DNA of 64,000 nucleotides, taken from assembly GCA_961205875.1 (NCBI GenBank), contig OY540818.1, positions 14,792,761 through 14,856,760 on the forward strand, given 5' to 3'. Shown one piece after another: positions 6,217 through 46,539 of the stretch; the first letter of the stretch is position 1; every line of letters begins with the position of its first letter. This stretch comes from Sialis fuliginosa (Eukaryota; Arthropoda; Insecta; Megaloptera; Sialidae). Under the pieces are notes generated by a model that saw only the letters and a program-made list of their open reading frames with translations, ran no database searches and was not told the origin of the DNA. The position numbers and the translations under genes are program-made.

Positions 6217-9200
6217 CTATTTTAGATCAGGTAAAACCTTTAAGTACACACGACTTCCTTCCGGAACTTTTATTGGTTCTTCATAAACATGATCTACAGT
6301 TGGGTTTTCACATTGGCAATGAGGAATTGTTTTTTGTGAAGCAGATTCTGATATAACTCGGTAATTCCGTCTCACTAAAATGTATGCAATATTTTAATTT
6401 ACTTCAATAATTTTTAATGTTGCAAGATTGTTCAAACTATGGTTAATTTTTAAATATGAGTATCATTATTTTATAATATATGAGATTAAATAAGAGATTT
6501 TTTTTTATTTCTTGCAAAATACCGATAGCCCTAAATAACATAAACACTCAAGGTATTTTTATTTACCTGGTTTTCTTTTTGTTTGTTTCCCGCAAATATC
6601 TATTTTTGTTTTACATATATAGATTACCACTACAAGTATTGGTATAAGCAACAATATAAGCAACAAATAGTAAAAATTGAAATATCCTTTTTTTGCTGTT
6701 ACTGTATTATATTGCCCAATCATATGTTTCGATTCTATTCGTTTGCATATAATTTTAGCATCTATGGAAGTTATTGCTTGTATGGTTCTTGTATCTAAAA
6801 AATAAATGTATTGTAATTTATGATTGCTTCTTAAAACTAAAACACATTTTGAAATACTTGCCATTTTTTTCTATGCACTCACGCAAACTTCGAACTCCCC
6901 AGTTTCCAGAACTATTATAATTACTAATTGTTTTTAATTTTATAAATACTGGTCCATTAATATATTCAGGAAAATTAAATATAAATTTCTCTATATGCCA
7001 TTTCTAAACAAAAAAATTATAATCTAAGATATATGTGCCTTCCATCTTTTATTTATCATAAATAAAATAGTATTTAATTGTCCATTACTGGGGTGTACTT
7101 ATTTCTACAACATTGGTAAATTATATTGGATTTTTAAATTAAAAAAATGTCAAAAAAGATTGTCATATCATCAATTTTTATATACATCATTACCTTTTTT
7201 GCTCAGCAGGTAACAACAATTTATTTATTTGTTTTTATATATTCAGTTCGTTATCTATTAAAATTTATACTTTTTGTTACTTGCTAAGCATAAAAAGTAC
7301 CTTAAATATTGCTAAATACCGAATGTGTAGTATTTATTATTTCTGTATGCGTATAATTGTTTCTTTCCAGCGTCAATTCTAGTCTACAAATTTCACATAA
7401 CATCACATCAATAGATATACAGATTTTCTGTGAAATTAAATTAAAAGTTGGACCTTCTAAATAAATATCATCAAAAACTGTTTTTAGATAACTACCTGCA
7501 ACATAATAAATTGTATTTATGAATTATATTATTAAATATAGCCTACATTTACAAAAAGTTAATTTTAAAATAAAGAGGTATACAGACGATATAAAATAAT
7601 AAATCGACGGACTTATCTAGTAGATCGTAACCTTCAAAATTTTAGAAATTTTTTATTTAGTTTAAATAAAATAATTATTAAAAAATTTTACATATATTTT
7701 TTTTATTTGCTCAAATCATCTTTTAAATATCATAAATGAAATTGTGCCCAAAACCCGATAATTAAAAATGTAAAAAATAATCTAGATTCATAGATTCGTA
7801 TTGAAACAATAGAGATAATAACATAGAGTAGGTTAGGTAACCGAGCACTTCATGTAAGTGGAAGCGACATATAAATAATAATAGAAAGACAATATTTCAG
7901 TGGTTGTGTTATGAACACATTTGCAATACATATTCTGCAAACAGTTTACTTTTTCGGCTGCCATACCTTCTCTATGTATAATATCTCTATGATTAAAACA
8001 ACAGTAAACGTACATCTGTGAATTCTCCATAAAGCATTATTCAATGAACTGACGAATACATATTTTGGTGTTAATGTTGCATTTCCTTCGTGAGACATCA
8101 AAATAGAACCTTCTTCATTTTTTATATACCAATAGTTACTTTTGTAACTAATCGCATATGTGTTCCATTCTAAGTTATTGGCATCGTTAATTTTCTAAAA
8201 TAAATTCATTAAATTACGTATAAATTCCTTCGGAACATAGAAGTAAAAAACGTACTCCTATGAACTCATATTTCTCATAGCTATTGATCAATATTTAAAG
8301 TCAATGAATATTGTTTAAATAATAACATATTTCATATCTTTTATAAAACACACTCACATTTTTAATAGACACAATAGAACAGTTATCAAAATGATTTAAT
8401 GCTGCATTTGGAGATGCCATTCTACATTCTGAAGCGATAGAATCGTTGCCTTTCTTAAAGTTAAGTTCTATCCAAAGACATTTATTACCAATTATCAATT
8501 TATTTTTTTCACACAAAGCTACATTTCCTTGACCAGATACAGAAAACCAAAGTTCTTCTCGATTAAGAGAATAGGATTCAGGAAGCAAAGTTAAATTCAA
8601 TGAAGAATTTATAATATCTAAATCTAAAAACAGCTGATTTTAATTATAATAGGTTATATGTGTGGTGATAAATTATATTTCTTACCTTCAAAATATATAT
8701 CATTCAAAGGTTTAAAAGAAGTTTCCATAACCCAGTCGGTTGTATTTGTAATTGAAAAACAGTTCAAAATATTTTTACAATCCAATTCTGATTTTCGATT
8801 TACCATTTCTAAATACAATATTCGGTTTAGTACATAAGTATTGGTATGTATTTATATACATAATAAAACGCAACGTCTCTCTGTCTGTATGTCTGTTCGT
8901 TAGTGCGTGTTTTTTTTTTAATTCATAGATATATTCTTTGCGTAGGTTTAAGTATATATTTTGTTACGTTAAGCAGTGACGATAATAATAAATCAAGTCG
9001 GAAAAAAGTTCTTTTTTGCAATACGCTGCCTAAACAATTAAATATTGAATAATATAATGTAGTAAAGAATTCTGTAGAATAAAAAAATTAATAATAATAG
9101 AAAAACTTAGAATGCGACCCCTGGCTTGTGAAGATTTAAAAAAATAATAAAATATTTAGTATAAATAAGTAGTTTCTCCCAAAAGATACTAAATTTCTAA

Positions 9201-10227
9201 TAAAAATTATTCATTTTTTAATTTTGGTCATTTTTTATTGATTTTTGTAAATTCATTTTTTAAATATTTATTATTAGTTGTTTTTTTTTGTTCGCTAAAA
9301 TTTTCGTTTTTTTATTGGCAATTTTTTAAGGTGGCGGAGGCTGCAGCCTGCAGACTCTCTTACAATAAATTTAGTGACCCAAATTCTGGTTTATTATCGT
9401 ATATATTTCTTCATATAAAAAAGATTTACAGTTAGATTAAATAATAACACTTATTCACCATGTTTAAGAACGGTTATAGCTCCATCGTCGTTTTTTATGA
9501 ACATGAGAGCAGCATCCACATCTATATCAGATGCTGTACATATTACTTTCTGAGTTGTGTCATTTATCTTCACACTCATCATCTCTACTTCCGAATGGAC
9601 AAACAATATCAAATTTAATAACAAAACACATCTGCAAATATAAAATTATTATACTAGAAAAATCAGAATAGTTGTTTTCAATTTTTGGCTACATTTCGAT
9701 AAATACATTTCCTATTACAATCACAATGATACCACAGACTATATTACTACATTTTAGGGACTGGTAGAAATAAATAAAGCTATAAATCGACTATCAGATG
9801 TTTAATTATACAAAAACAAAAAAACAATATATGAATTTTATTAAATAATTGCATCAAATATTATAACATTTAAATATTATAAATAAATAAATCGCTTTTA
9901 TCAAATTCAAATTTTAATTTTGCTTCCTCGCAATATCGAAGATACGAGAAGCTTTGTGATCGTTTCAGATTGAGACAATAAAATGTTCTCCGATTTCAAA
10001 ATTTTAAATTGATCGTTCCGTTTAACGACAAGACAAACACTTTTCGTTCCGTGTCTGTCTGTCTGTCCGTCCGTGTGTGTGTGTCCGTCTGTCCCCTGAA
10101 TCCATGTCACACGCATAACTCATGAACCACTGAACCGATATTGTTGAAACTTGGTCGGATGGTTGGGCCTGGCTTGAGAACCAATAATAATTAAAATATG
10201 AACTTACCTTAAAATTATTTCCCACAT
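6217..10227 (-). CDS. Gene A: type I membrane protein of a three-gene tandem family, YEEP tail
   Basis: Nine exons on the minus strand: 10227-10208, 9631-9459, 8808-8686, 8623-8358, 8194-8014, 7495-7320, 7003-6862, 6794-6567, 6374-6217. All phases agree and give 488 residues. The start gives signal peptide MWEIILRCVLLLNLILFVHS. The ectodomain has Cys pairs (LDCKNILNC; ALCE, NKCLW, SECR, DNCS; CEIC; LREC) and N-glycosylation sites. Residues about 110-254 (W..YAISYKSNYWYI, NALWRIH) form one domain; 255-360 ends SSGNWGVRSLREC, resembling the end of MAM-like domains. One membrane span lies at about 401-420. The tail ends HVYEEPIKV (Tyr467) and VYLKV (Tyr480), a likely SH2-type docking site if phosphorylated. 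Intron 7 uses a GC donor. Function unknown; a cell-surface receptor or adhesion protein is inferred from topology only. Confidence 0.75.
9918..10170. repeat. Dispersed repeat with CTGT/GTGT microsatellite, inside intron 1 of gene A
   Basis: The block TCGCAATATCGAAGATACG...GAAGCTTTGTGATCG recurs at 51140-51240. It is followed by a CTGT/CCGT/GTGT microsatellite and by cataactcatgaaccactg, a style common in tails of insect non-LTR retroelements. Open frames read across it are chance frames. Confidence 0.6.
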
Positions 10228-11673
10228 TTTAAGAAAGAGAAACGTTTTTATTTATTATATTAATTCTCATTTTCAGAAATACTTGATGTATGTAGATTGT
10301 AGATACATACTTATATTATAGATAAATAATATACACATATATGATTAGGAATATTATCAACACCTACTCAGGCATTAATTCAGATTAATAAAACACAATA
10401 TTTAATTTAAGTTTAAAAAATCCCTAGATATTGATAAGCTAATGAATAAATAAGCCGATAAAAACTGTAGTATTCATAGATTTTTATTTCTTGCATTCAT
10501 TATAGAAATAATAAGATTAAAATTATTAATATGCCAAAAATAATAATATTTTCAATTATACAAAATATTAGTAATGCAGGTTAGTATTAAGGAAAGCAAC
10601 AATTAAGGAATAAAAAAATATTTATTTTCAATATTGTAAAGTAGGTAGGTATATAAATATTATATACATTATTTATTTAAAATAAAATAGTACATACGTC
10701 ATGTTATACATACATGGTTTTATAATAATTTATATTTTTATTAATAAATAAATTCTTTTCATTACGTTCCATATTATTTTACAACAAAAATATACAAAAC
10801 AATAATAACTATATTAATTTTAACTTCGTATCACAGAATTACAGTATGTAATATTTATATCAATTTTATCATAGTATAATTTATTCATTTTTTATGTTTC
10901 AATATATCTGCTCATCATTAATATCTTACTGTAAGCAATTACCTTTACCACACGACCTAACATTTGGAATGCCCCGGCAAGGACCTATTTTAGCCCTCTT
11001 TATCAGTAGTGCGGTCCTTTTTTTTGCTCATCATTTATGAGGATCGGCGACTATATAATGACATTTTTTTCGGCACCCTCTTGGCCTTGCACGGGAGCCG
11101 GTTTCACCAGCTACTTACACCTCTAATCAAAGGTTATGTAAAACTTGTATATATTTGTTAGTGCTGCTAATAGGTATTGGTTGTTCGTATGCATGTATTG
11201 AATTTATCCTTCGACAACGAGTACAGGTACATTGTGATAAACAATAATGATTGTTTCTATCTAAAACAATTACAAATCGAATTAATAACTAAGTTTGTTC
11301 TAGTCTTTTAATACAGTGGTGCACACCCTATTTGTCACAACAGACGCAATAGTTTATGTTTTATATTATTTTTAAAGAAAGAATTAAACATTTTATATTT
11401 TAAAATAATTTTGAAATGTAAATGTCCACTTTTATTTTATAAATATGTACATTTATAATTTAAAGAATAAACTTTAATTTTTAACCGACATAAAAAAAGG
11501 AAGGTTCTGTTTTCGTCATGCATGATTTTCTCAGGAACTATTGAACGGATTTTGTAGGACAATTCTTAGTAGGGATATTGTGCTTAAAATGACATACTTT
11601 GGTTATTTTACGTTTTGATTTACATAATTCAGTGTTTTTTTATACCTTCAACAATCAGAAAATAAATGTAGGT
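10228..11673. other. Intergenic DNA between genes A and B
   Basis: Upstream of gene A and downstream of gene B. It contains a GC-richer repeat at about 10925-11120 and, near 11478, aaccgacataaaaaaaggaag, a fragment resembling a widespread insect repeat. No supported exon. Confidence 0.5.
10925..11120. repeat. GC-richer interspersed repeat fragment
   Basis: Stands out from AT-rich surroundings (ggaatgccccggcaagg, cacgggagccggtttcacc). It looks like a decayed SINE or LINE end. No structure or target duplication was found, so the class is open. Confidence 0.35.
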
Positions 11674-14600
11674 TTAGCTGTTCTTACCTAGAACTGGAAT
11701 CATTTCTTCATAAATATGCACTGATGAGTTCTCACTTTGACTTCTATGATTATATGTAACTGGTAAACTAGATTCAGACAAACTCTGCGATCTAACTAAA
11801 ATATTTAATTTAGTTTAAGGGACCCTCTTATAATTACGAAATGCTTTTTTCGGAATGGGGGATTCAAATTATGGAATAGTTTGGAAATGAGAATCTCTAC
11901 TCTACATATGAATCCTTAAAATCATTCTTACGTTATATGGATGCTCCTTTAAATTTTTCTTAAAGCAATAGATAAAAAGGGTCTCTATGTGACAGTTGAA
12001 ATAAACGAACGTATTTTTTTGTATCTTGTATATTATGATATATTATTCAAAAGTAAGGTACTGGCACCAGTCTTGGATATGAACCCAGTAATAAATTATT
12101 TAATATGTATGAATTTTTTAAAAACAAAGTGATTTCTTTACCTGATTTACTTTTTATTAGTTTACAGCAAACTTCATATGAATACAACATTACTACTATT
12201 GCAAACAAAAATATGAATAAATATAGCAAAATTGTTAATTCTGTTGTCCCATTATTACGAGCAGGAATATTATTTGTTGTTATTTCTGAAATTGAAATTA
12301 TTTTTAAATGAAATAATCGTGAACGTGCAATTTATATACAGGCTTTCTATAAAGTTTTGATACATTTTCGTGAAAACATAATTAATCCTCACTTTTGTTC
12401 TAGGGGTCAATAACTATCATAGTATGAGTGTTATGTCCGATATTATAAAGAAGCTAGCAAATTTGCTAGTTAGCAAGCACTTTCAAATGGGGTATTAATT
12501 CTGTGATAGTATCTATGGATTATTTATGAAATTTAGAGCAGTGATTCTTTAACGTATTGTAACACAGTTGGCGACTCTGACCGTACAAATTAATTTTCAT
12601 AATATCGCCACTGTTTTAATACAGTTGGTGTTTACATACCACTCATGCGAGAAACTTGTTAAACATTTGATAAAACTAAAGGAGAACTGTCAGATAGGTT
12701 AAAACCTCATTTGAAAGTGCTTGTTAGCTCCTTTATAATACCGGACATTAACGTATCTTATGTCTTCGTTAGAACTGAGTTTATACGTAAATGGAAACCT
12801 AGTCAAATTTCAGATAACAAATATGGACAGATATGGAGCCATTTGCCCATATTCGACAATTATGTCTGTTAACTTGGCCACGCATATGAAATGTAGCCTC
12901 ATCGCCAAATAAAATGGTATTCATTAAATTGTCGTCAAAGTAAAATTTAACACTTTTCACACGCTGCTACGAGGTATACCAAGTTCCCTACTGAATTTCT
13001 TACTGAACATGTTATGTTATCTAAAAATTGTTCATAAGAAGCTGAAAATTCGCCCTTGTTGAGTCAAGTTTCCCTTTATGTATACTCGACCCTAACTATT
13101 TTATAGGAGAATCCTGTTAAACGTGTCCAAAAAAAAATACTAATATATACTTACTAGTTGTAATTAATTACATTATCACCAAAATGGATCGAAACTTTGT
13201 AGACACCTGTACGCATCTTGCAATATATATAAAATTTTAAAAAAAGTATATATTAAACAACAGTACCTGGTTGAAAATTAATACTTATAGTAGAGTTTAC
13301 ATTTATAGAATTAAAAAATAATTCTGTATTAGTACTATTAAAAGTATTATCTGGTAATGTTGTTAGTTCTGAAAATGAATATATTTTTATGTAAAATAAT
13401 CGTAAATATATAATTTACATATACAGGATGATTTACAACTAGTGTAAAAAAAATTTTTACAGTACATCCAGGATATCATTTTAAGCAAAAAATCTTATGT
13501 GAACCTATGTCCGGAAATTCTTCATAAGGGAGCTACAGTCTCTTGCCCAAAATTATTATTTAATATCTAGAGAACCCATTGTGGTACATATATGAAATTT
13601 GATACAAGGATTAGTATTTATAAGTGTTATCAATTTCCATTATCAAATAATAATAATTTGGACCAGGTGTGTATGGGGCCAGTGTGCCCGCCGATTTTTA
13701 TCAAGTATTTTTTTGTTCTTGAATTTTTTCCTGAATTGGATTCTTGTAGAAGATTATATGATACAAAATAGACAAAAATATACATTGTTCGTTTGTCATA
13801 AGATTAACCATTTTCGAAAAATATTGAAAAAAGCAAGTACTGCAGAATTTTACTTAATACGGATGCTCAAATTACACAAAATAAGTTTATATTCTTGTTC
13901 AATGATTAAAAATAAGATGAAAAGTTATAAATGTAGCTCCAAAACTGCATTTTTAACAACAAACAACCATTTATAGATTTGTTTATTAATCATGTTAGTA
14001 AAATATGTATAACAGTAATAGAACTAGCTATAACTCTATGATGATAAGTATTAGGAGGTATATTTATATTAACTTTAATTTTTTTACTCTAGTTGTAAAA
14101 TCATCTTGAATGAAAGCTTTTTTAAAGTTTATAAAATAATAGTACCTGGTCTGGAATTAATATTTATAATAGATTTTACTTTTAAAGCACTGAGGAATGA
14201 TTCTGTATTATTACTATTAATAGTATCATCTGAAGTTGTTGGTAAAGTTTCAAATTCTGAAATTAATATTTTTTATGTTATTAGGCACTAATTAATTGTT
14301 TATGTACATCTTGCAAAATTATTTAATATTTCTATAAAAGTAAAATTACTACATTCATAAAAAAAATTACCTGTACATTCACGTAAGCCACGAATACCCC
14401 AAAAATTCTCAAAACCTTGACTAACAGTTTTTATCTTTAAAACTGTAAGTTTTTCAGAACATTCAGTAAATGTCATTTTTAATTGTACTGTAATCCATTG
14501 CTAGAAAAAATTATGCATAGTTGATAAAATTAATATTAGCATATGTTTAAATTGAAATAAACTATTCAAAAACCGTTATTTTTTCAGGATTCAGGTTCGG

Positions 14601-17600
14601 GTTCGGGTTGAAGATTGTAATTATTTTGTTAAAAAAAATATAATTAACAAATAGCAAATTTTCTGAAGAAAAAAAAAACATTAATAGCCTTTAAAATATG
14701 GATAGGAAAGGGCAAAAAATAAAATAACATTTAAAAAATTTAAATCTCTACTTTTCAGATTTTTTCTGCAAATTGAAATGTAATTTGATTAATTATTATT
14801 TATCTAAAATTGATAACTCATATCATTCAAACAAACTAGTTAGTATATTTTTTTGACACACCCTTGAATCCTGAAATTATACTTACTTATTTATATTATA
14901 TTATGAGTTATCATACATATACAATATACAATACACATACCTCATGTGCAAGACTTTCAGTTCTCATCAACTTTGTTTGTGTAATGTTATTTTTTTCAAT
15001 TGATACTTCTAGTTCACAAGTTGGGCACATATACATATCAAGTGACAAGCAAATCCTATTTGAAGTTACATTAAAACTACTTATTAAATATTCTTCAGCA
15101 AAAGCGGTTCGCAGATAATTACCTGCAACATTAATAACTCTTTAAAATTATCATCTTATAACCACATCTTAAATCTTACGTTTATGAATTTTCCATAACG
15201 CATTATGAAAAGAACTGATAAACACGAAACTTGGTATGAACGTTGATTTCCAAGACATTATCGAAATACCTTCTCTATTTTCTAAGTTCATATAACCATT
15301 TTTGTAACTTAATGTAAATGTATTCCATTCTAACTCTTTAATAGTTAATAATTCCTAGAACCACAATAAATCATTAAACTCTTCCTGCACGGTATTCGCT
15401 TGCTTACAAATCCATTCAAACTAACGCGATTTCTCACACGTTATTAGCTCCGTTTTTTGTATTAATAATTCAATATTAATTGTTATTTTGAGTTTTCTTT
15501 GATGAATAACATCGTCTCGCTTAAAATACGTGAAAATCAGGCGACTATTTACCACATATAAGTTAGTTGTTAGAGTAGAAACGAGCGTATCGGGCCGCGC
15601 ATTCCGCGCAAGATTTGCGCCAGTTTGAGATGAGCATTAATTTAGGGCGAGAAAATAGTATTTATCAAATAAAACTCAAAATGGCAATTGATACTCGTAT
15701 GTCAATATTGACATGTTAAATTGAAATACAAGCCTACGAATTCGTGGGATTCGCGCCAGTTTTAGAGAAGCTTTAAAACAATAAAATAATGTTGATTTAA
15801 TATTTTTTTAAACTCACGTTTTTAGTAGATCTTACATCACAACTGTCAAAATGATCCATTTCTACGTATGGTGATAATATTCTGCATTCTGAAACTACAG
15901 AACCTTTATTTTTCTCATTACTGAGGTTTAACCAAAGGCATTTATTTCCAATTGTTAAATTGCAGTTTTCACAAAATGCTATAGATCCTTGATTATCGAT
16001 AGAAAAAGAAAAATTTCTATCAAAAAAATTGAAATCAGAGAGCAAAGTAAGATTGGATGAAGAATGCGTAACATCTAAATCTAGAATTAAAAATATAAAA
16101 ATATTAATAAATCTAATTTTAACTAGTACATTACATTTGATTACCTTCTAAATTTGGTAAACTTGAACGACCATAAGATGTTAATGGATGCCATTTATTT
16201 GAATAAGATAAGCAATCTAACACATTATTACAATCCAAATCAGTCTTTCGATTTGGCAGATCTTAAAAAAATCAAAACAATATTCATAACTTAATTTAAT
16301 AAAGAACAGATTCAGAAATTATATAGCCTGCTAGATATTTATATTATATATTTATTGAGCGAACCTGAGCTACTTTCTATGCCAAACTTTGATATTTTTA
16401 TATAAGAGAAACTTACTTAATACTTTATGTAATGAAATAAACAATAAAAAAAACTCAGTAAGGTCGATCTAGACAATCGAGCTAGTCTCGGCCCGGTCTC
16501 GCTCCAATCAAATCTTGTGATCCCTACTATAACTATTTTTTTTTTAAATTCTTGGATTAAAGTATCTTATATATAGATTATACCTACATTTCATTATAAT
16601 TAATCGACGGGTATATTTACTAAAAATAAACGAAAACTAATACATATAAGTAGGTGTAAAATTAATATTATATTATTAATGTGAAGTAAATAAAAATAAC
16701 TTATTACCATATTCTTCTTCACAATTATTTTGCTCGATTTTATGATCATATATGTCTCTATAAACTTTATTTAACATCCTTCCTGAATGTTCAATATTTT
16801 TTTCTAAGGCTGTATAAATCTTCTGTTTGTGTATGTCATTTATTTTAGTTGTTATTTTGATCTCCATTTCAATAAATTGAATTAAATGTATCAATAAATA
16901 GCATCTGTTATTGGTATTTAAAAAAAAATTAAAATTAAATTATTATTTAGTTTCAGAGACGTAGCTAAAGGTAGCTCTACCCCGGCGAAAACTAAAATAA
17001 TCGCCTCTAATAATTATTTTTCATTGCCATGTAATTTCTGACGCCTCCTTCAAAATTTCTCATCAATCCGCTATCTTTTCTGTCACATTCACCCTTTTGA
17101 CTCAATTTGGTCCCCTAGACTTTATTCGCCAGCCCCTAGCTACACCACTGTTTAGTATTTTGTACATCAGACGTTATCAGGGTGTTAAATTAATATTATA
17201 TTTATAATATTTGATAATTATCAAGCATGGGTCTGTTCTTAGTTACTGTTTCGTTCAATGCATTTTTCTAGAATTTATAGTTATCTAAAATAACATTATT
17301 TCTCTAAATCACGCTTCATTAAGAAGAATTTAAAAATATAAAACTATATTTTTCATTTACATAAATTCAATTTAATTTTTATAACAATTTTGTATCTACA
17401 TAAATATAATGATATTTATGTACCTACCTGGCTATAATAATTTAAAATCTAATCGGTGAATGTAATGGCTTTATTTATTTTTTATTTCATATCTGTATTT
17501 TTATCAATAATTCAATAAATCAAAAAAATGAATAATATTATACATACAGAATAAGTAGCTACATACATATATCAATAGCAAATAAATGAAAGTGTTTATT

Positions 17601-18029
17601 AAGTACCTATATAGGAATATTTTTTTGTTTTATACTAACTTAATTAAATAATTATCTAAGTACTTAGGTTTTTATTATTTTATTGAATAAGCTGTTTCGA
17701 TTTTTAACCATCCACCTAGTTAGTGATGAACTACTACTTTTAATTCAATTTAAAAAATCGTACCTACATAAACAGTATATTGTTAGATGAACAGTTCAAA
17801 AACTAAAGCGAATATTATTGATGGTTTTAAAAAAATTTTTAGCAACGATGGTAAAACTTAATAACATAGTGACTTATCTAACAATAAGTTTGAATATAAA
17901 CAAAATCTGGACAGAATGTTTTGAATAGTTGGTTGCTTTTACTTTAATTTAATCTTTATATGTTATACTTTCATTTTTATATTTAAAATATGACTTTTAG
18001 TTAACTTACCTTAACATTAAAATGTGCAT
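11674..18029 (-). CDS. Gene B: diverged paralogue of A and C with extra stalk exons
   Basis: Eleven exons, minus strand: 18029-18010, 16904-16708, 16261-16145, 16080-15818, 15354-15180, 15122-14941, 14500-14371, 14256-14146, 13368-13267, 12285-12142, 11795-11674. Phases agree; 520 residues. Start MHILMLRCYLLIHLIQF is a signal peptide. It keeps the core Cys pattern (AFCE, NKCLW, SECR, DSCD; CPTC; LREC), W..FTLSY and NALWKIH. It differs from A and C in its N-terminal mature part (Lys/Glu-rich, lacking the SEVEMMSVKIND-like block), in two extra Asn/Thr/Ser-rich exons between ectodomain and membrane that look like duplicates of each other, and in the tail, IYEEMIPVL (Tyr509), which stops soon after and lacks the second Tyr-Leu-Lys-Val site. 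CTAG before GTAAGA near the stop could be a donor to an unseen exon. Most diverged member, apparently intact. Confidence 0.72.
12434..12746. mobile_element. MITE, family 1 copy 2, in the intron before the membrane-span exon of gene B
   Basis: Ends GTCCGATATTATAAAG and TTTATAATACCGGAC are inverted. The interior matches the 3005-3275 copy over most of its length (ttctgtgata, tctatggatta, agcagtgatt, cactgttttaatac, gagaactgtcagata). Confidence 0.7.
12825..12981 (-). pseudogene. Transposase fragment (DDE type, insect Tc1/mariner-like)
   Basis: On the minus strand one frame reads ...NTILFGDEATFHMRGQVN... and continues RHNCRIWANGS. The pattern F-x-D-E-A-x-F-x-x-x-G-x-V-N-x-x-N-C-x-x-W is typical of a transposase group common in insects, where the D of DEA is catalytic. 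Only about 50 residues survive, with no start, no ends and no flanking frame. It lies in an intron of gene B, antisense to nothing known. Confidence 0.6.
13420..13930. repeat. Interspersed repeat in an intron of gene B
   Basis: The segment around 13854-13915 (acttaatacggatgctcaaa...) is nearly repeated at 38999-39060. Another part (gtatggggccagtgtgcccg) resembles 18340-18400. This marks a dispersed repeat; the 125-codon frame over it has no protein-like features. Confidence 0.45.
16456..16507. repeat. Short dispersed repeat, copy 1
   Basis: GGTCGATC..GAC followed by CGGTCTCGCTCCAATCAAA also occurs at 52319-52369 with a few changes. It is GC-rich against its surroundings. Class unknown. Confidence 0.5.
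16954..17150. mobile_element. hAT-like MITE in intron 1 of gene B
   Basis: Ends CAGAGACGTAGCTA and TAGCTACACCACTG are inverted. Flanks tttagttt and tttagtat agree at 7 of 8 bases, which fits an 8-bp hAT-type target duplication. Length 197 bp, no coding capacity. Confidence 0.6.
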
Positions 18030-20212
18030 TTTAAAAACACAAATAAAAATATAAGTACAACCACTTTTGCAAATTTGAATTAACTAAAATTAATACTACA
18101 TACTAAAAATGGATTATTTATTTAATTAATAAATATGTAATCTAATCTTAACACCTACAAAAATCTAAAGATATTAAATTCAGGGAGAGAGTACTAAAAA
18201 AATAAATTTAAACCAAAAAATATTTTTTTTTATCATCAAAATGTATAACCAAACCAAATTTGACTCTTTCTTATTTTTTAACAAAAATAGCACCTGCAAG
18301 GGTCTCCAAACAGTAGTATGAAATTCGGAACCCTTATGCCTTATGGCTTACACCCGTGTATGTCTTGGCTGATTTTTATCATTTATTCCCTGAGTAGTTA
18401 TTACACCAATATCAGATAAAATTTAATAACTTAGATTATTGTTAGAACAAGCATGATGTCACTACACTTCACTAGACATTGAGTGAAAATAACAAAAACC
18501 GAAGATATCTGATAATGAGACCTATTTTTTAAATCAATTTATCATTACAATAAAACATTTTTTCAGCCCACCTATTAACTTATAAAATGATTAATTTGTA
18601 AAATATTAACAAATTAAGATTCTTTACAGATAAATACGGAAAGTACAATTTTTTTCATTATAATTACTAGTGATAAAAGTATTTAGATTGGCAAAAATAA
18701 ATAAATATATGATCAATATTTTGCTATATAAATGAAAGATGAAAGTGCAATTTAAATAGTAAGTAAATATGGGGAATAGTATTAGTTAATTTTCATATGA
18801 CCAAGTGTTTTAAATGATATCTCTTTAAACCCACGATCTAGATCATTAGGAAATATACATATGAAATTACCTTAATTATTTGCAATCTACAGTGTAAAAT
18901 AAAACGAATTCTCGAAAAATGAGTAATTATTTATATCTATATATGTCATTGTACACCTACATAAAAATATAATTAAATCAAAATATTTTAACGACTACAT
19001 TGTCAGTTGATTTCTACTTTATTCATTTAAATCGTAAGGAATATATACGTAGGTAGATGTACCTAATAGAAAAATAAAATCAATTAATTAATAAAATATT
19101 TTAAAAATATTATTTTATTAAAAAAATACATATACAAAAATTTTATTCGCTAACAAAAAATTATAAACTCGAAAAAGTAAAAGTTGAATTTTGAATGAGC
19201 TAATGGGTAGTATGAATAAAACGAATTATAAAAAGTTTATACTCTACAGAATAATATGATTAAAAATACCAACAATATGTACATACTAAAAGTTAAGTTA
19301 CAGAGTAAACTCAAGTTGAGAGATTTTACTTAAATATTGTATAAATGAAAAAAGTACATACTCAAAAGAGCGAGTTTATACTTCGATAACTTGAAGTTTG
19401 GCCAGTAGTAAACAGCTTTATCGTATTCATTATGTAATAGCAAAAACTTTAATTAAATAGGCTAGAAATCACTATACAAACTCAACAGAGAATTTTGTTA
19501 ATTGGCTATCTAATAATATCTGATGCAAGTACGATATAATATACTCTAATTTGAGTAAAATTTTATGTCTTTTTATTCATACCAATCTGAGTTTATACTT
19601 GAAATAATCATGCTCAAATTTACCTATATACTCCGTTTTATTCATACCTTCCAACAGGGGTGATTTTAACAAAATTTTAGAGTTACCCTACTGTCACTCA
19701 ATATTTTATTCCTATTTACATTTAAATATCATTCTGCATTATTTTATAACCAATATTACAAGTATTTATACAAAAAAATTCACCGTCATTAAAGAAATGG
19801 TTTATTTCACCCTAAAAATAATTAAATCATTACATTGAACAATAATTCAATAAATAAATTATTAAAATCTAAATTAGCGAAGTCTACTACAGGTTGTACA
19901 ATATAATGTCATGTTTAAACCAGAAAGACAAAACAGCAATATCGCATTTTTTTGACAAAATTGCCACAAACTTTATATATTTTTAAATACGAAGTACGTT
20001 AAAAACACCGTGTTGCTGTTTTTTCTTTTTAGTGTAAACACGGCATACGAGCAGCACACGTTGGACAATTAAAATAGTAGATAATTTATACATGTGCATA
20101 GCCAAGGAAGGGGCACGGGGCGCTCTCTTCTCAAAAACTTTGGAAATCAAATTTAGAAAATCATATTATACTTACTAGCGTGCTATATTAGCAACTAGCG
20201 CCACCAAATCTA
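18030..20212. other. Intergenic DNA upstream of gene B
   Basis: AT-rich with no supported exon. It holds a candidate MITE at 19206-19648 and repeat fragments near 18290-18400. The promoter of gene B should lie just right of 18029, but I see no distinct TATA or initiator motif. Confidence 0.5.
19206..19648. mobile_element. Candidate MITE, about 440 bp
   Basis: The left end has GTATGAATAAAACGAATTAT and the right end is the reverse complement of GGTATGAATAAAACGGAGTA. Repeated short blocks (gagtttatact, actcaagttgaga) occur inside. No target duplication was resolved. Confidence 0.5.
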
Positions 20213-21041
20213 CACAGTAAAAAATATTGTGTATTTGCGTCAAAAACGGTCTGTGTTGAAAAATTGTGTGTTGATTTTTGTGTGTTAATTTGACACTTTT
20301 TTTGTGTTACCTGAATTTTAACATGAAAATAGTGTTGTTTTCACGATATTAACACTTTTTGTGTGTTACTAGATAAAATGACACAAAATTAGTGTCAAGC
20401 GGGAAATATTAACACTAAGTTTGTGTTGTTGGCGCGTCCTTTCTTCAGTTTACGCGCCAAACGCATTGTTTTACCGGACAGCTACTTAACCACTCGGGCG
20501 TATAAATCATAGTGTTCAATTTTATGAAAAAAAGTTTATTTAAATATATTTGATAAAAAAAACCAGATTGTTCTGAATAAAAAAAAGTAAAATTGATATT
20601 AATTAAAGTAAGTAAAAGTTTACTGTATTTACAATCATATAAAATGCTCAACTAACCTCACTTTCTTATAAGAAATTTGCTACATAAATTGTTATTTAAC
20701 GATACAATTTATAATAGTTATTAAAAATTACAGACTTTGAACAATTTAAAGAAATGAAATAAACTAATTTTCTTCATAAGCATGAAAAATTTATTTATTC
20801 TTAATTAATTCCCTAACCTTTATATTCAAACTCAAATAATAAATGAGTTAACACTTATTTTGTGTAAAATCAACACAATTCTAGTGTTAGATACAGTCGA
20901 CACAAAATTAATGTTAATTTTGACACAATATTTGTGTTAAAAATTCAACACTATTTTTTGTGTTGAAAATTAACACTAAAATTGTGTCGACGGATTCTAA
21001 CACTAGGATTGTGTTGATTTTACACAAAATTTTTTACTGTG
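20213..21041. mobile_element. 829-bp mariner-type MITE packed with AACAC/GTGTT hairpins
   Basis: Terminal inverted repeats CACAGTAAAAAAT (20213) and ATTTTTTACTGTG (to 21041) are flanked on both sides by TA, the target of Tc1/mariner elements. About 200 bp inside each end is a string of short repeats and mirror pairs such as GTGTTAA, AACACAAA and TTGTGTTGATTT, so each arm can fold many ways. The middle is unique AT-rich DNA. No transposase. Confidence 0.75.
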
Positions 21042-21154
21042 TATGAATATGTTCACCCACTATTAAATAATATAAATAACGAAAGTCTTTATTATTAAAT
21101 ATATAATTTTCAAATATTCAACAGGCATAAATATGCATCACAAGAAAGTCACCA

Positions 21155-24100
21155 TTAAGATAAGACTTTTAAATACTCTTTACTACCTTTTGACACTATG
21201 ATCGGTTCTTCATAAACGTTATTTAACAGCATAAGTTCAGTTTGATTAGGAAACAATGGAGTCATAGACTGTTGTTGACGATAAATGCCTGAAATGTACA
21301 TATAAAAGTTAAATTTCAAATTAAACAATCTGACAAAAATCTCTTAAAATATCCAAATGGACTAATCAGAACCCAATATTTGGTATTTAACACAAACAGA
21401 CTGTGCATTATCCTAAACCAAGCATTAAATATCAAATTTCATTGAAAAAAATCGAATAAAATTTGAATCCTTCTGAAATTCCAAACAGCCATTTGAAATG
21501 TTTAAATATTATGTAAACAAGTAATTAAAATTATTAAAATGCAATCAATAATAAAAAACAGCTATAACTTGTGCTGTACCAAATTGTGATAGTAATTCAT
21601 TCAATAAAAAATTAATGTTTCATCAAAAAATACAGCTGTCAAAGAAATTACAAAAAATGCAGCTGTTAGAAATATGGGTGAAAAATTTAAACTTCCTCCA
21701 TTAGTGATAAAAATATTTATGTTTGCTGTGCACACTTTACTCCCAATGACGTTTTTAATAATACATTTACATTGAACGGTAAGTAATATTAATAATAAAA
21801 ATATTAATTTAACCGATAAGTGGCAGAATGGTCACTGACCATAGCGAATATAAAAAATCAATTTTACTTTAGCAATATGACCATTTAGAATTGAAAACGC
21901 AATTTTTATTTTCGAACCATATTATTACCCAAACACTTAATAGTAATTATTTTAGTAACTACTTACCCTTGTTTGCCACTGCTTTCGAAGTATTTCGTTT
22001 ACATTTATAGATTACTACGATTATAATAGGCACAATTACTAATAAAATTAAAAAATAATAGTAATTAATACTGCTTGCATTAATACTCTTAGGTGTAGAA
22101 CTATTTATAATTGGTAGCTTCGAATCCGTTCTTAGACATGTAACATTTGTATCCAGTGGAAATATTGTCTGTATTATTCTTGCATCTAAAATTAAAATTA
22201 CGGTTTAAAAAAATTAAATTGAATAAATGGAAATTTTACCAAAAATGTTAAAGTAACGTTATATTTTAATCTTAAACACTTACCATTTTTTTCGACACAT
22301 TCTCGCAAATTACGAATTGCCCAAATTCCAGTACTATTGGTATTACTGACAGTTTTAAGAGTTAAAATGGTTGCTCCGTTAATATTTTCAGGAATATCAA
22401 ATGCTTCTTTAATTTTACCCCAATACTAAAAAATACAAAATTCATCAATAAAATATTTAATTTAAGTTAGATCATAACATGATAACTGACACTTATTCCA
22501 ATTTAGTTTTGCATGTTTTTTCGTTTGAGAAATACGTTTAACAAAATGGCTATTTAATGATTTCTTAACAATACAGATACCTATACACAGTAATGAATTT
22601 TGTCAGAGTTTAAAAAGTAAAAATAAATATTTTAAGAAAAAAGAGCAAATTTTTATACAATAATATTTAGTTTAGTTATAATATAATATTATTTATATTA
22701 TAACTAACATTCCGCTGGGTCCACAAACATCAATTTTTCAAATCGCTCTTCTAAGAAATTATCGATTTATTTATTAATAAATTGTAAAACATTTCTCCTA
22801 CTAAATCATTCGTCGTAAAATAAAGAAAATGTTTTTGATATGGTAAAAATGATTGCAATAAAATTTCTTATTGTTAAATAAAACTAGGCAATAAAAATAA
22901 TTTTGCTCTGTCGTAGATACCTGAATAAGTGATCCCAAAGGTTTTTGGCATACTAAAACCGAATCTATTGCCCAAATTGCTCCTATACGTCAGGTTTCAC
23001 TTTTGGAATCACCTATCCAGATCTCTGTCAAATTATAATTAATATTCTGGAACACTTGCGATTATCTACCCTTTATGTTAAAATTATTTTGTTTTGACGT
23101 ATTTTTCATTAAAATAATTGATTCATACCGGACGTTTATTTGCTATTATTTTAGAACTTGTGAAGTTGTTTGCTTTTAACGACATTTCTAAATTACAAGT
23201 AAGACACAAAGCCAGGTCCATAGAGATGCAGATTCGTGGTGGATGAACATTAATGCTTCGACTGATCAAAACTTTATCTGAATTTTCTGTTTTAAGATAA
23301 TTAGCTGAAAAATAAAAACAATCGGTTAAATTATATGTTTAATATACTTAGATAACGACCATGTAAAGCTATGTAGACAATATCTTTTGACCCCCATCAC
23401 TGGCTAATGTTACATAACACATTACCATAAATATAATATATAGTTTTAGCATTAAGTAAACATTATAATGGGTTAATCACTCAACAGAGAATGTTACGTT
23501 GTATTTTAATAAGGCCCCACATCCCCCATTTAACTCCAATTAACAATATAGTTATACCCCCCCCCCCCTTACGTGATTTATGGATGTTTCCTTAATAAAA
23601 TTGAAAGGTATAAATTACTTATTTTTGTTTTTTAAAGAAAATTAAAACTCCTAAGACTAATATACCTAAATATTTTGTATTTTTGGTTACATACATTTAT
23701 GAATTTTCCAGAATGCGTTACGGGAAGAATTTATAAAGACATATTTTGGTATAGTCGTTGTATTTCTTTCACATGACATTACTGATGTATCGTTATTATC
23801 TTTTATATACCAATAACTACTTGTGTATGCTATTTTAAACTCTCTCCATTCTGAATCCAAGACAACATTAGTTTTCTGAAATTATTAATAAATATTATAA
23901 TTAAATAAATACATCTTAAATACATATAAGATGAATAAAAAAAAACGTATCGGTGAAAAGGAGCTCGCCGAAAATTTTCCGTGAGTCGAGAAAGTTTGAA
24001 TACCACTGGTATAGAACTATAGATGCGTGTTGTTCTTAGATATTTTCAAAATAAAACAGGGCTTCGAACCGGAAAAACCGTTATTTTTTGCCGGAACGAA

Positions 24101-27013
24101 AACCGGAACAGAACCGAACTAAAAATATCGGTTTTTACGGTTCAGTTTGTACCATAAAATATTCTAAATTATGGTAGAAATTTTTTTTTTAATACAAATA
24201 ATTTTTTTTTAATTAATCACTCGGAGCTGAACCGAAAACCGAAAAACCCGGAAAAACCGTTATTTTTTGCAGAACGATAACCGGAACCAAACCGAAATAT
24301 ATTTTTTACTCGAACCGGAACGAAAACCGAAACGAAAAAAATAACGGTTCGAAGCCCTGAAATAAAATCTTTTTGATTTTATTATGTGCGATTTCATAAA
24401 TATTATAATATATAAAATGCTCACATTTGTTTCAGATACAATAGAACACATGAAATGTTTTGGAGTTGAATTTGCAGTTAAAATTCTACACTCTAATGCC
24501 ACAGAACCATTGTTTTTCTCAGTTCCGAGTTTTATCCAAAGACATTTATTACCACTTATTAATTCATTATGTTCACAAAAAGCTATCGTAGCTTTATTAG
24601 AAACAGAAAATAAAAGCTCATGTTCACTTTGAAATTTAAAATTTGGAAGTAGAGTAAGCTTCGGTGTTGACTTTATGATAGATACATCTATAATACAATT
24701 TAAAATTCAAATAACACATTTATTGTATTGATAAAATGTAGAATGTATGTATGCAAGTGATATTTTTACCTTCAAAATCAATTTCACTCAATGCTTCAAA
24801 AGATGTTAGTTGATCCCATCCAATTGTATTAGCAAAGCATTCTGTGATGTTCTTGCATTCCAAATTTGTTTTGGGATTTAGTAATTCTAATATAAAACTG
24901 AATATTATTATAAACTTATAATTTTTTACATTCTTCAAATATGTATCGTCAAATTTCATAGAATCAAAGGTTTTTTTGCATATGGTGAAGGGTATAAATG
25001 GATCCATAGAATAAATAATTCATTCCCATACTTAATCTCATTATGATATTTGTATTCTTTACAACGTTTAATATTTATGAAATTTGTTTCTTGTAGAATT
25101 GTAAAAAATAGTAACGTCAAAAATGTGAAATTTTTCTTAAACTAACAAAAATAATTTAGTTATATGTAATTTCTGTTTTTATTTATCTTTTTTATTAAAT
25201 TTTAAAATAATAATATTATTTGTTTACCGGTCCCTTAAATGTCCAATTACCCATTAAAAATAGTATTAGATGGGACACTATACCGCTTAAAAATTAATTA
25301 TGAAAAAGGTATGTTAAAAAGTAAAATATCGATGAGTAGAAACAATTTGTAATAGTTAATGTTAGACCCATTCGATATCAATCAATAATAATAAGCAGCA
25401 TTTTATTCACCATGTTTAACAATATTTGTATCCGTCTCGGTATTAGTAACGAACATCAATCCAGCATCTGCGTCTGTATCTGATGCCATACATATAGCTT
25501 GTCCAGCTGTATCATTTATCTTTACCGTCATCATTCTTATTTCCGAATCAACAGAAAATATCAATTGTAGTAGCAAACCGCATCTGCAATTAATTTTAAA
25601 AACGTACATATATTATATAGGGGAGATACCCAATGAAACGGAAAATGTCTGTTCCATTTTGTTGTTAATATCACTAAGTTCCATCCACTATAGTTCCATG
25701 TGTTATGTTTGTATTGACAATATAAGTTTTCATCTTAAAAAAAAAAAACTAAAAAAAAATAGTTTTTTAAAAAAGATTCCAAAAGTGAGATATTACACTT
25801 GTATTTTTGATGGTTTGTGTAATATTGCATATACATATTTGAGTCAAACATTAATAGTAAGTTATCTACTTTTCAAATCTTATTTCTAATTAATATTTAT
25901 TAATAAATGATAGGTATCTACAAAAAAAAATTACTTCCACGTTTAATTCATTTTCATAATCGAATTAAATTAAATTTACAAAAATAAGAATCATAAGTAT
26001 GGTGTACTTTGGAAAAACATAATTCTAAATTACATTTATATCAGTAAGAAGTGAATACAAGTGGCTACTTGAAACACATATCATTTGAATAATATGTAAT
26101 AAGGTAGGAAATCTCACTTCTTTTTTAATCTGCACAAACAAATAGAAATGTAACCAAATCCTACCCGCAGGTTTATTTATAGCTATACTTCTATTTACAA
26201 CTAATTCAGGAAATCATTACATTAATCTTTCTATGACCTTATCGAAAATTATGAAAGCTTTAGTGGATAAAATATGTTGAACATTTTTAAAAAAGGTAGT
26301 ACATCTGACATAAATAATGTTTATACAGTGTATTCCAAGTTGATTAAGACAAAGGAAATTTAATATGAGGGCAATTAGAAATGTTGTAGTAACCTTTGAT
26401 CAAATTTAACGATGTGTCATTGATGCATTTTGAAATGCCGCCTCGAAACTAACTAATAAATTTTAAATTAATCAACAGTATTTTGTTTTCAACTTTAATA
26501 AAGAATAACATTAATGAAGAATCAATTATCGTCTGAAAATTATATACAAAACGAATAATTAACTAATCATGTTTTATAGTAAATCGAATAACTAGTTATG
26601 AAATTTTGATATCACAAAAACGGTATTAACAAATTCATCCCCCCCCCTCCCGCCCCTAAAATAAGATTCAATGCAAGGGGTAAATATTAAACGTAAAAAA
26701 ATTATTTTAAATCGAGAAATCCTAGATAAAATTATAATAATATTTTTTGGCAGATATAAATTTGAAAACAAAATACTAATTACAATTTTATTAAATTTTG
26801 TGGCGGCATTTCAAAATGCACCAATCACACATCGTTAGATTTGACCAAAGGTTACTACAACACTTCTAATTGCCCCATATTAAATTTCCTATGTCTTAAT
26901 CAACTTGGAATACACTGTATAATAAAACAATGATAAAAAAATAATGATAAAACAATTTTTTAAACAAATAATTACTAATTTATTGTACATTACCTTAAAA
27001 TATGATTGTACAT
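21155..27013 (-). CDS. Gene C: type I membrane protein of the tandem family, YEEP tail
   Basis: Nine exons, minus strand: 27013-26994, 25583-25411, 24886-24770, 24687-24425, 23875-23695, 23304-23129, 22425-22284, 22185-21967, 21288-21155. Phases agree; 474 residues. Exons 1, 2, 6 and 7 have exactly the lengths of those in gene A. Signal peptide MYNHILRCGLLLQLIFSVDS is followed by SEIRMMTVKIND, like gene A. Shared marks: LECKNITEC; AFCE, NKCLW, LECR; W..FKIAYTSSYWYI, NAFWKIH; CLTCNLEMS; STGIWAIRNLREC. Membrane span near residues 402-420, basic stop-transfer (KCKR). Tail has NNVYEEPIIV (Tyr456) and EYLKVLS (Tyr469). Closest to A, so A and C probably share function; B is the outlier. Introns carry a hAT MITE and a mariner-type MITE. 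Family not recognised. Confidence 0.75.
24057..24359. mobile_element. hAT-like MITE in intron 4 of gene C
   Basis: Ends CAGGGCTTCGAACCG and CGGTTCGAAGCCCTG are perfect inverted repeats, flanked by a perfect 8-bp duplication aaataaaa (24049-24056 and 24360-24367). The interior is built of repeated AACCGGAAC/AACCGAAA blocks. 303 bp, no gene. Confidence 0.85.
26326..26917. mobile_element. 592-bp Tc1/mariner-type MITE in intron 1 of gene C
   Basis: Inverted repeats of about 120 bp: left CAGTGTATTCCAAGTTGATT... and right ...AATCAACTTGGAATACACTG, with TA on both sides. The arms agree closely up to gcatttcaaaatgc/gcattttgaaatgc. No transposase frame inside. Confidence 0.85.
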
Positions 27014-28032: not shown

Positions 28033-28950
28033 TTAAAATGTATTGTATGCATGATGTATATTTATGTGTTCCTAAAAAATATAACTCCATAGTTAAAAAA
28101 TACTTGCTTAAACTATATATATGTAAGTATGAATTATTTAGGTAAGTATTACTACAATATATACTTTATTTATATCTGTGTAGATAAACAGGTAACATAA
28201 AACTAATTAAGAGAATCTATGTAGATAAATAGAAATCAATTCAAAAAGTTCGTAAATATACGTATTATAACTGTGTAGATAAACAGTTATATTATACAAT
28301 TAAATCGAATGTATACAAGGGCGTATAAATTTTTATGCGCATTTGAATTCAGGAAGCACAAACGATAGCATCTCTATCTTGTAAAAAAAAATTTGTCGGA
28401 ATAGCTTCTGAAAAAAATATTGAAATTTAAAAGTTACATGTGGCGCCATCTAGCAGAAACATGATGAACTAACAAAAACTGGCTGAATTATATTGTTAGT
28501 ACAAGTTGTTTTTGATAGATGGCGCCACATAAACTTTTTAAATTTCAATATTTTTTTCAGAAGCCATTCCGTCTAAAACAATTTTTTTTAACGAGTTAGA
28601 GACACTATCGTATGTATTAGGGCAGCCTGAGTCCAAAAATGTACATACAATGTTTCGCTCGGATCGATAAAACTGTTTTTTATCAACATTTGTCTAAAAA
28701 ATTTGCTTGAAATTTTTAACAAACGAAGGAATTTAATCTGGTGTCATATATGATATCAGCATGTCATATTCCATACGATGGCGTGTAAAATACTTTCAGA
28801 TTTGAAATAGGTATATCAATAACCGTACTGGAAAACACATCCTTATTGAATTTGAAAATAAGTGACACGCCATCGTATGTAATATGACATACTCATATCA
28901 GAAATTATAATAGATTTTAAATCAATTATTAAAAATCTATTATCATTTCT

Positions 28951-30860
28951 GATATCAGTGCGTCAAATTACATACGATGGTGTGTCAATTATTTTCAAAT
29001 TCAATAAGGATGAGTTTTTCAGTACGGTATTTGATACACTCTTTATTAATTTAATAGAATTATACATGACATCGTATGTAAAAGGGCACGCTGATATCAT
29101 ATATTACACCAGATTAAAATTCCTTCGTTTGTTAAAAATTTCAAACAAATTTCTTAGACAAATGTTGATACAAAACAGTTTTATCGATCCGAGCGAAACT
29201 TTTAATGTACATTTTTGGAATCAGGGTAGCCTTATACATACGATAGTGTTTCTAACTCAACAAAAAAAATGACTTAGTCGAAACGGCATCTGAAAAAAAT
29301 ATTGAAATTTAAATGGTTCATGAACGCCATCTGGCAGAAATAGCTTGAACTAACAATATAATTCAGGTTTTTTTTATAGTTTAAGCTTTTCAAGCTAGAT
29401 TTTGTTACATGTACTTTTAAATTTCAATTAATTTTTCTGATGCCATTCCGACTAAGTCATATTTTTTTTGTCGAGTTAGAGGCGCTATCGTATGTATAAG
29501 GCTACCCTGATTCCAAAAATGTACATTAAAAGTTTCGCTCGGATCGATAAAACTGTTTTTTATCAACATTTGTCTAAAAAATTTGCTTGAAATTTTTAAC
29601 AAACGAAGGAATTTTAATCTGGTGTAATATATGATATCAGCGTGCCCTTTTACATACGATGTCATGTATAATTCTATTAAATTAATAAAGAGTGTATCAA
29701 ATACCGTACTGAAAAACTCATCCTTATTGAATTTGAAAAAAATTGACACACCATCGTATGTAATTTGACGCACTGATATCACAAATGATAATAGATTTTA
29801 AATCAATTCACTGGTTCAAAATATGATGAAATTTTTTAAGACAAAAGTTAATAAAAAACCGTGTTATCGATCCGAGCGCAACTTTTGATGGGCATATTTG
29901 GAATCAGGGTGCCCTAATACATACGATAGCGTCTCTAACTCGCCAAAAAAATTTTTTTCCAAAAAAGAAGCAAGGCTATAGTATGGCTTAAAAAACACCC
30001 GAAAAACACTTTTTTCGATTTTCAAAAAATTAGATACGTTATCGCATGTAAAGGGATACGCTAATTCGACAATTTTTATCTGTTGTGAAATTCATCAAAG
30101 GGTTCAAAAGTTACAGCCATTTTACGACGAAAAATTGATAAAAATCGGTGATAGGGGTCCGAGCGGAACTTTTTATCAACATTTTTGGATTCACCGTGCT
30201 GTTATACATGCGATAGCGTGCCTAACTCGACAAAAAAAATTTGTAGCGATGACGTAACATGACGGCACCTACACCAAATATACAGAATAAAATATTTTTT
30301 GATTTTTTTGTATTCCTTATTCAAAAATACCACTTTTATATTATTTTTCTACATTTTTATTTTTTGGTGAAGGCGCCGTCATGTTACGTCATCGCTACAA
30401 TTTTTTTTTGTCGAGTTAGGCACGGTATCGTATGTATAACAGCATGGTGATTCCAAAAATGTTGATAAAAAGTTCCACTCGGACCCCTATCACCGTTTTT
30501 TATCAATTTTTCGTCGTAAAATGGCTGTAACTTTTGAACCCTTTGATGAATTTTGCAACAGATAAAAATTGTCGAATTAGCGTATCCCTTTACATGCGAT
30601 AACGTATCTAATTTTTTGAAAATCGAAAAAAGTGTTTTTCGGGTGTTTTTTAAGCCATACTTATAGCCTTGCTTCTTTTTTGGAAAAAAATTTTTTTGGC
30701 GAGTTAGAGACGCTATCGTATGTATTAGGGCACCCTGATTCCAAATATGCCCATCAAAAGTTGCGCTTGGATCGATAACACGATTTTTTATCAACTTTTG
30801 TCTTAAAAAATTTCAACATATTTTGAACCAGTGAATTGATTTAAAATCTATTATCATTTC
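28951..30860. repeat. Tandem 2-kb unit, copy 1 (U-U'-V-V')
   Basis: The marker gatatcagtgcgtca occurs at 28951, 30861 and 32880, giving units of 1910 and 2019 bp. Sequence between units is almost identical, so the duplication is recent. Confidence 0.75.

Positions 30861-40972: not shown

Positions 40973-46539
<5,567 letters not shown>

Follow-up and report, generated by a model that had tools for sequence, protein, structure and literature searches.

Three neighbouring minus-strand genes lie between positions 6217 and 27013 of a 64,000-nucleotide stretch of the Sialis fuliginosa genome (the window; C10:14792761-14856760 of a 392-Mb, 20-contig assembly, G000, whose contigs are cited here as C1, C2 and so on). 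They are named A (left), B (middle) and C (right). On balance, the three genes probably encode type I receptors without a phosphatase domain, members of a multi-locus superfamily related to the receptor protein tyrosine phosphatases (RPTPs), with tails that would dock phosphotyrosine-binding proteins and a paired-receptor arrangement. This reading builds on the conserved protein sequences of the trio, on an extracellular unit (D2) also found in an RPTP locus of the same genome, and on the tyrosine motifs of the predicted cytoplasmic tails.

Gene structure and protein anatomy

All three genes could be spliced by hand into open frames at the limits proposed in a preliminary description of this DNA (Table 1), in a window that is AT-rich throughout (GC of 22–30% in 4-kb steps). 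The lengths given there stood for A (488 aa) and C (474 aa), but B came out at 560 aa and not 520. The first exon is 20 nt long in each gene, the phases at the ends of exons 1–7 are identical in all three (2,1,1,0,1,0,1), and exons 2–9 of A are matched by the paralogues in tblastn searches. B has three exons more than A and C, and its two stalk exons (8 and 9) are mutually alike (47% over 36 aa). The donor site of intron 7 in A (6861-6795) is GC, and the paralogous intron of C uses GT.

In the protein alignment, A is 47% identical to C and 38% to B, so that A is indeed nearer to C, as first described, but only moderately so. Pairwise omega (dN/dS), estimated by codon maximum likelihood on the mature proteins, is 0.13 for A-C, 0.24 for A-B and 0.26 for C-B. 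Each value is far below 1 (2dlnL 59–102) and dS is saturated (2.3–3.4); these values mark the reading frames as old and subject to purifying selection, in keeping with the tandem duplication and divergence first proposed. For the membrane-and-tail segment, the estimate did not converge for A-C and C-B. At the protein level, conservation of the gene models exceeds chance. On average, nothing points to fast evolution, and saturated dS hides effects at sites. A role in immunity or at the gamete surface may be envisaged for such a cluster.

Each protein consists of an N-region with a likely signal peptide, a short C-x5-C region (D0), two units named D1 and D2, a stalk, a membrane span and a cytoplasmic tail. 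A single strongly hydrophobic stretch precedes the tail in A, B and C, and there are 11–14 N-glycosylation sequons in each whole chain, 10–12 of them ahead of the membrane span. Type I topology is firmly predicted for all three from these sequences. The signal peptides were judged by eye, and the 19-residue hydropathy threshold was passed by A only. As for the motifs listed in the preliminary description, NKCLW, ECR, NA-[LF]W-[KR]-IH and W-[GA]-[VI]-R-x-LREC are common to the trio, as is the single membrane span. AFCE is limited to B and C (A has ALCE), YWYI to A and C (B carries YMNL), and the Tyr-Glu-Glu tail takes the form YEEP in A and C, with YEEM plus YEQP in B.

No family was matched by A, B or C at the curated cut-off of Pfam (best below it, TMEM154 at 0.017) or at that of NCBIfam (RodZ, 0.0037). 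PDB sequences searched with query A1 gave nothing better than 0.43, a PDB search with D2 gave no useful match, and no relative was encoded on the viral contigs searched with query A1. In these libraries, the combination thus matches no known family, as had been claimed. The family is also not described in the titles or abstract openings among the literature matches listed, which came mainly from the open literature. EGF-type phagocytic receptors of the Nimrod, Draper and Eater kind were considered and rejected, A, B and C having no EGF match in Pfam and no EGF/NIM repeats visible by eye; the Pfam scan by itself is weak in this respect, since the EGF-like units of the relatives described below escaped it too.

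Relatives in the genome and the link to receptor tyrosine phosphatases

What is described of genes outside the window comes from exon fragments, not from full models. In a genome search with D1 of A, no gene beyond the trio came within E 0.001, and a search with D2 plus the tail of C led to C2:19.85 Mb (0.0016) and weakly to C2:38.97 Mb (0.13). Four relatives on C2 were read (G1 to G4; Table 1), and the D1 and D2 exons of G1 keep the phases of the trio. The first FN3 was recognised by Pfam in both G3 (2.1e-9) and G4 (1.3e-8; of G4, this first FN3-like stretch alone was put to Pfam), and the second FN3 of G3 fell below the cut-off (0.0019). The EGF-like units of the relatives were recognised by eye, with no Pfam EGF match in the three stretches scanned.

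A search with G1 found G2, A (0.008) and C (0.26). With G3, EGF-like modules were found at C2:39.02-39.07 (4 places), C2:38.76, C2:38.80, C12:2.32, C12:2.37, C1:44.10 and C3:1.83 (in Mb), and D1 at C12:2.29 (0.009) and C12:2.33 (0.02). The PDB search with the EGF-FN3 stretch of G3 found the angiopoietin-1 receptor weakly (0.044), behind FN3 domains of RPTPs; the N-region may resemble half of a Tie-like Ig domain and the EGF-like unit that of Tie.

Hidden Markov model (HMM) searches were run on 9143 open frames, taken from the window, from the three regions that had been read and from 11 of these loci. Profiles built from the trio alone reached seven further places at E<0.01 (G1, G2, G3, RPTP1, C2:39.05 Mb and two on C12), and profiles with G3 or G1–G3 added reached three more (G4, C2:39.06 and C12:2.32). 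The trio-only D2 model found G3 (7.6e-16), the first D2 exon of RPTP1 (C2:38799989-38800246; 1.4e-6), G1 (5.1e-6) and G2 (2.8e-4), with weaker matches at C2:39.05 (0.006), C12:2.32 (0.03) and C2:39.06 (0.09). The corresponding D1 model found the C12 copies (1.1e-6 and 3.2e-6) and G3 (6e-4), and an N-region model of A, B, C and G3 found G4 (1.5e-6). A 420-aa frame resembling the integrase region of a retroelement (C12:2288715-2291939, minus strand) adjoins the D1 exon of a family copy.

Exons of the PTP domain (PF00102) lie about 20–25 kb behind three EGF-like modules, on the same strand. At one of these loci, RPTP1, 34.8 kb were read. Pfam matched Y_phosphatase at 4.3e-22 and, in the three FN3 stretches scanned, one FN3 at 9.9e-11, with the others just under the cut-off (1.0e-4 and 6.7e-5). 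The N-D0-D2 part of RPTP1 had no Pfam match, and its EGF-like units matched no EGF family. The N-region and D0 models (A, B, C and G3) scored 0.058 and 0.056 at this locus, close to noise, and the units follow in the order N, D0, D2. The D2 match places A, B and C as homologous in D2 to an RPTP of the same genome. The trio was also considered as receptor tyrosine phosphatases in their own right and this was rejected, with no Y_phosphatase match in Pfam and tails of only 57–89 aa. Frames like those of a mariner-type transposase lie within RPTP1 between the EGF-like units and the FN3 repeats (C2:38803855-38804411, plus strand).

Tyrosine motifs of the tails

The tails of A, B and C end in a shared block, YE[E/Q]P-x8/9-Y[L/I][K/Q]V. 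Identity in this block compared with the rest of the tail is 14/20 versus 6/36 for A-C and 9/19 versus 8/36 for C-B. The B tail has two Y[DEQ][DEQ] motifs, with 0.08 expected from shuffles (p=0.0018). The long tail exon of G1, which belongs to no known Pfam family, holds 14 tyrosines, with five Y[DEQ][DEQ] (0.72 expected, p=0.0002) and nine Yxx[PVILM] (3.36 expected, p=0.0022). Between G1 and G2, 20/29 residues of a tail block are identical versus 33–51% in the four D1/D2 exons, which hints at a tail kept under a diverging ectodomain. Among SH2 domains, pYxxP suits the Crk/Nck type and pYEEI-like sites suit the Src type.

Resemblance of D1 and D2 to known domains

Profile alignments are suggestive, and only that, of D1 being a diverged FAMeT-like domain and D2 a MAM-like one. 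Pfam gave no PF12248 match for A, B and C, and no PF00629 match for the trio or the scanned stretches of the relatives; as controls, a FAMeT consensus (4.5e-52), the genome's own FAMeT gene (3.9e-31) and a MAM consensus (7.1e-30) were all recognised. In hhalign, D1 and the FAMeT domains of this genome were aligned over 83–100 columns (131 at a loosened setting). With eight D1 sequences, the score was reached by 0/300 column shuffles, and with three by 0/200 and 7/1500; with a single consensus or bacterial templates, 20/200, 83/200 and 27/200 shuffles reached it. D2 aligned with the C-terminal half of MAM over 43 columns (0/300 shuffles with ten sequences), the template being a MAM consensus plus two PDB sequences. 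Cross-controls gave 189/300 for D1-MAM and 4/300 for D2-FAMeT. The hhalign probability is below 3% for both D1-FAMeT and D2-MAM (2.9% for the latter).

The second FAMeT domain of the FAMeT gene (FAMeT2) has the phases 1/0/1 of D1, and the internal phase-0 intron lies 21 (FAMeT2) and 17 (D1) residues before an aligned aromatic residue. The cysteines of D2 at ICISI and LREC resemble the C3-C4 pair of MAM. Searches of viral contigs and PDB with the FAMeT consensus, and of phages with a bacterial FAMeT stretch, led nowhere.

Insect FAMeT proteins are described as combining this domain with DUF3421, and their enzymatic role is doubted in the same account (PMC10015273); Methyltransf_FA has been reported in the complement-like protein CPAMD8 (PMC9363628).

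Two bacterial genes bear on this domain. One, from a metagenome-assembled genome (L001 913-2172, plus strand), encodes a FAMeT domain (52% to the consensus) together with two DM9/DUF3421-like stretches recognised by eye; this combination is the one known from insects, and horizontal transfer or contamination is possible. The other (L002 1270-2523, plus strand) is carried on a Rhizobium plasmid, contains a FAMeT-like stretch and adjoins a UDP-galactopyranose mutase gene.

Table 1. Gene models, protein regions and related loci (single positions refer to the window unless a contig is named; related loci with decimals are in Mb).
Feature	Position	Strand	Remarks
Gene A	6217..10227	-	488 aa, 9 exons; hand splicing, open frame and stop
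Gene A exons	10227-10208, 9631-9459, 8808-8686, 8623-8358, 8194-8014, 7495-7320, 7003-6862, 6794-6567, 6374-6217	-	
Gene B	11127..18029	-	560 aa, 12 exons; hand splicing, open frame
Gene B exons	18029-18010, 16904-16708, 16261-16145, 16080-15818, 15354-15180, 15122-14941, 14500-14371, 14256-14146, 13368-13267, 12285-12142, 11795-11688, 11260-11127	-	
Gene C	21155..27013	-	474 aa, 9 exons; hand splicing, open frame
Gene C exons	27013-26994, 25583-25411, 24886-24770, 24687-24425, 23875-23695, 23304-23129, 22425-22284, 22185-21967, 21288-21155	-	
N-region and likely signal peptide	A exons 1-2, 9459..10227; B 18029-18010 + 16904-16708; C 27013-26994 + 25583-25411	-	
D0, short C-x5-C region	A exon 3, 8686..8808; B 16261-16145; C 24886-24770	-	two invariant Cys
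D1, possibly FAMeT-like	A exons 4-5, 8014..8623; B 16080-15818 + 15354-15180; C 24687-24425 + 23875-23695	-	phases 1/0/1, four invariant Cys
D2, possibly MAM-like	A exons 6-7, 6862..7495; B 15122-14941 + 14500-14371; C 23304-23129 + 22425-22284	-	phases 1/0/1, four invariant Cys
Stalk and membrane span	A exon 8, 6567..6794; C 22185-21967; B stalk 14256-14146 + 13368-13267, span in 12285-12142	-	hydropathy
Cytoplasmic tail	A exon 9, 6217..6374 (YEEP-x9-YLKV); C 21288-21155 (same motif); B 11795-11688 (YEEM), 11260-11127 (YEQP-x8-YIQV)	-	
RPTP1	C2:38797185-38829510		N-region, D0, D2 (two exons), two EGF-like units, several FN3, membrane span, PTP exons with HCSAGVGRTG
RPTP2 (second locus)	C2:38751899-38788231		N-region at C2:38751899 (1.9e-9 with that of RPTP1), PTP exons C2:38783719-38788231
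PTP exon loci	C3:1804221-1807749; C2:38783719-38788231; C2:38824828-38829534		PF00102
G1, G2	C2:38.964-38.983	+	D0-D1-D2-membrane span-tail
G1 tail exon	G000:C2:38971033-38971707	+	YDEV, YEDI, YDEV, YVEP, YMNV, YDEF, YDLP, YDYP
G3	C2:19.855-19.849	-	N-D0-D1-D2, EGF-like unit, two FN3, membrane span
G4	C2:19.837-19.834	-	N, EGF-like unit, two FN3-like stretches, membrane span
FAMeT gene	G000:C7:18252938-18254853	-	two FAMeT domains, then a DUF3421-like exon (by eye); all 4 genome matches lie here

Other features of the window

A block of compact direct and inverted repeats (28487-33293; 816-nt arms 96% complementary, period of about 2.0 kb) separates gene C from a gene with two PDZ domains and has the look of a satellite or of a nested palindromic mobile element. 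The PDZ gene (34631-35821, plus strand; Pfam PDZ 2.3e-17 on the 35253-35821 pieces) is presumably syntenin-like. Exons of an aldehyde dehydrogenase lie at 44547-46179 on the minus strand (Pfam Aldedh 2.7e-9, one piece scanned), a tRNA-Glu at 46908-46979 on the plus strand, and a 236-aa open frame without a confident family at 598-1305, also on the plus strand.

Interpretation and alternatives

If A, B and C are RPTP-related receptors without a phosphatase, D1 and D2, both probably beta-sandwiches, would bind a ligand or another cell. Clustering would then lead to phosphorylation of the tail tyrosines by a tyrosine kinase, perhaps of the Src family, and SH2 adaptors could dock on the phosphorylated tails. 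RPTP members with the same or similar ligands would counteract this by dephosphorylation. The modules look as though they were assembled through shuffling of phase 1-1 units. A wider proposal, which is plausible but decidedly tentative, is a paired-receptor system in which the N-region, D0, FAMeT-like D1 and MAM-like D2, with optional EGF-like and FN3 parts, are mounted on either phosphatases or docking tails, so that recognition of self, symbionts or microbes would be expressed as a balance between phosphorylation and dephosphorylation.

Several observations weigh against these readings. In RPTP1, the N-region and D0 matches are near noise taken alone, no D1 match was found at E up to 1 in the stretch read (trio HMM), and the second D2 exon was missed by the HMM and assigned by eye, so that the shared ectodomain is partial; the putative RPTP1 gene would also span 32 kb. 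The trio D1 model gives G1 only 0.47 and G2 nothing, and the D1 of these two rests on position and shape. For the FAMeT likeness, the first control gave D2-FAMeT 4/1000 against 7/1500 for D1-FAMeT, with D2 aligned on 14 columns only. The internal intron of FAMeT1 lies elsewhere and D2 also has the phases 1/0/1, so the phase match is not specific and amounts to support, not proof. In the tails, A-B shows no contrast between the block and the rest (8/19 versus 15/35), the G1-G2 block was picked by eye, and Y[DEQ][DEQ] is not significant singly in A (p=0.07) or C (p=0.05). Yxx[PVILM] exceeds shuffles in A (p=0.02) and, as given above, in G1, but not in B (0.13) or C (0.23). The tail motifs also fit neither the strict immunoreceptor tyrosine-based activation motif (ITAM; Yxx[LI]x(6-12)Yxx[LI]) nor the strict inhibitory motif (ITIM; [ILVS]xYxx[LV]), both of which were rejected: the tails carry YEEP-x9-YLKV or YEQP-x8-YIQV, and at position -2, these tyrosines and that of YEEM have H, N, R or K.

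The same short tails would suit adhesion proteins, or proteins binding matrix or cuticle, that have no signalling of their own and use the tail for trafficking through Yxx-hydrophobic endocytic signals. YLKV, YIQV, YRVI and YEEM fit that sorting signal, and MAM-like modules are adhesive in RPTP mu. The acidic YEE/YEQ context kept in A, B and C and the many tyrosines of the G1 tail, however, exceed the needs of sorting, and a relative with a PTP domain points to phosphotyrosine signalling, which leaves adhesion and trafficking alone rather unlikely. Decoys or co-receptors are a still less probable alternative: sharing D2, and perhaps the N-region and D0, with RPTP1 and having no phosphatase domain, the trio could bind the ligand of RPTP members and act on these either as competitors or within heteromers, with the tail as an RPTP substrate, but the 14/20 identity of the A-C tail block suggests more than passive competition. 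The isolated three-gene family without known kin that the preliminary description put forward, which agrees with the absence of Pfam or NCBIfam matches above cut-off and of PDB or viral-contig relatives and with the D1 search that gave only the trio, is very improbable and was rejected, trio-only profiles reaching seven other genomic places and domain relatives, among them a receptor tyrosine phosphatase, lying on other contigs.

Comparison with known systems

The nearest comparison for A, B and C is with the RPTPs of the same genome (RPTP1 and RPTP2), which are alike in D2, possibly in the N-region and D0, and in their predicted type I topology. They differ in that A, B and C lack the EGF-like, FN3 and PTP parts and have tyrosine motifs instead, and in that the D1 search found none in RPTP1. 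A looser comparison is with the RPTP mu/kappa group, whose members bear MAM. The likeness of D2 to MAM proteins (PF00629) extends over the 43 aligned columns, against which stand the missing Pfam match and the low hhalign probability. FAMeT proteins (PF12248) resemble D1 in a profile alignment above shuffles and in the phases 1/0/1, but D1 is below Pfam detection and sits in a predicted membrane receptor with extra cysteines. The bicycle genes of aphids encode secreted proteins with paired CYC motifs and have many microexons, whereas each protein of the trio contains a membrane span.

Should the favoured reading of the trio as phosphatase-less docking receptors hold, the vertebrate principle of paired receptors would have its equivalent in insects, built on another ectodomain and with a phosphatase joined to the inhibitory arm; the FAMeT-like fold would appear in a new setting as an extracellular recognition module, and A, B and C would offer three small, testable receptors. 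Vertebrate paired receptors such as CEACAM and KIR likewise form clusters in which the same recognition modules are carried on tails of opposite sign. They differ from A, B and C, which have no Ig domain above the Pfam cut-off, and the inhibitory arm would here be a putative built-in phosphatase. By analogy, the trio would work most like the vertebrate paired receptors, without being a member of them.

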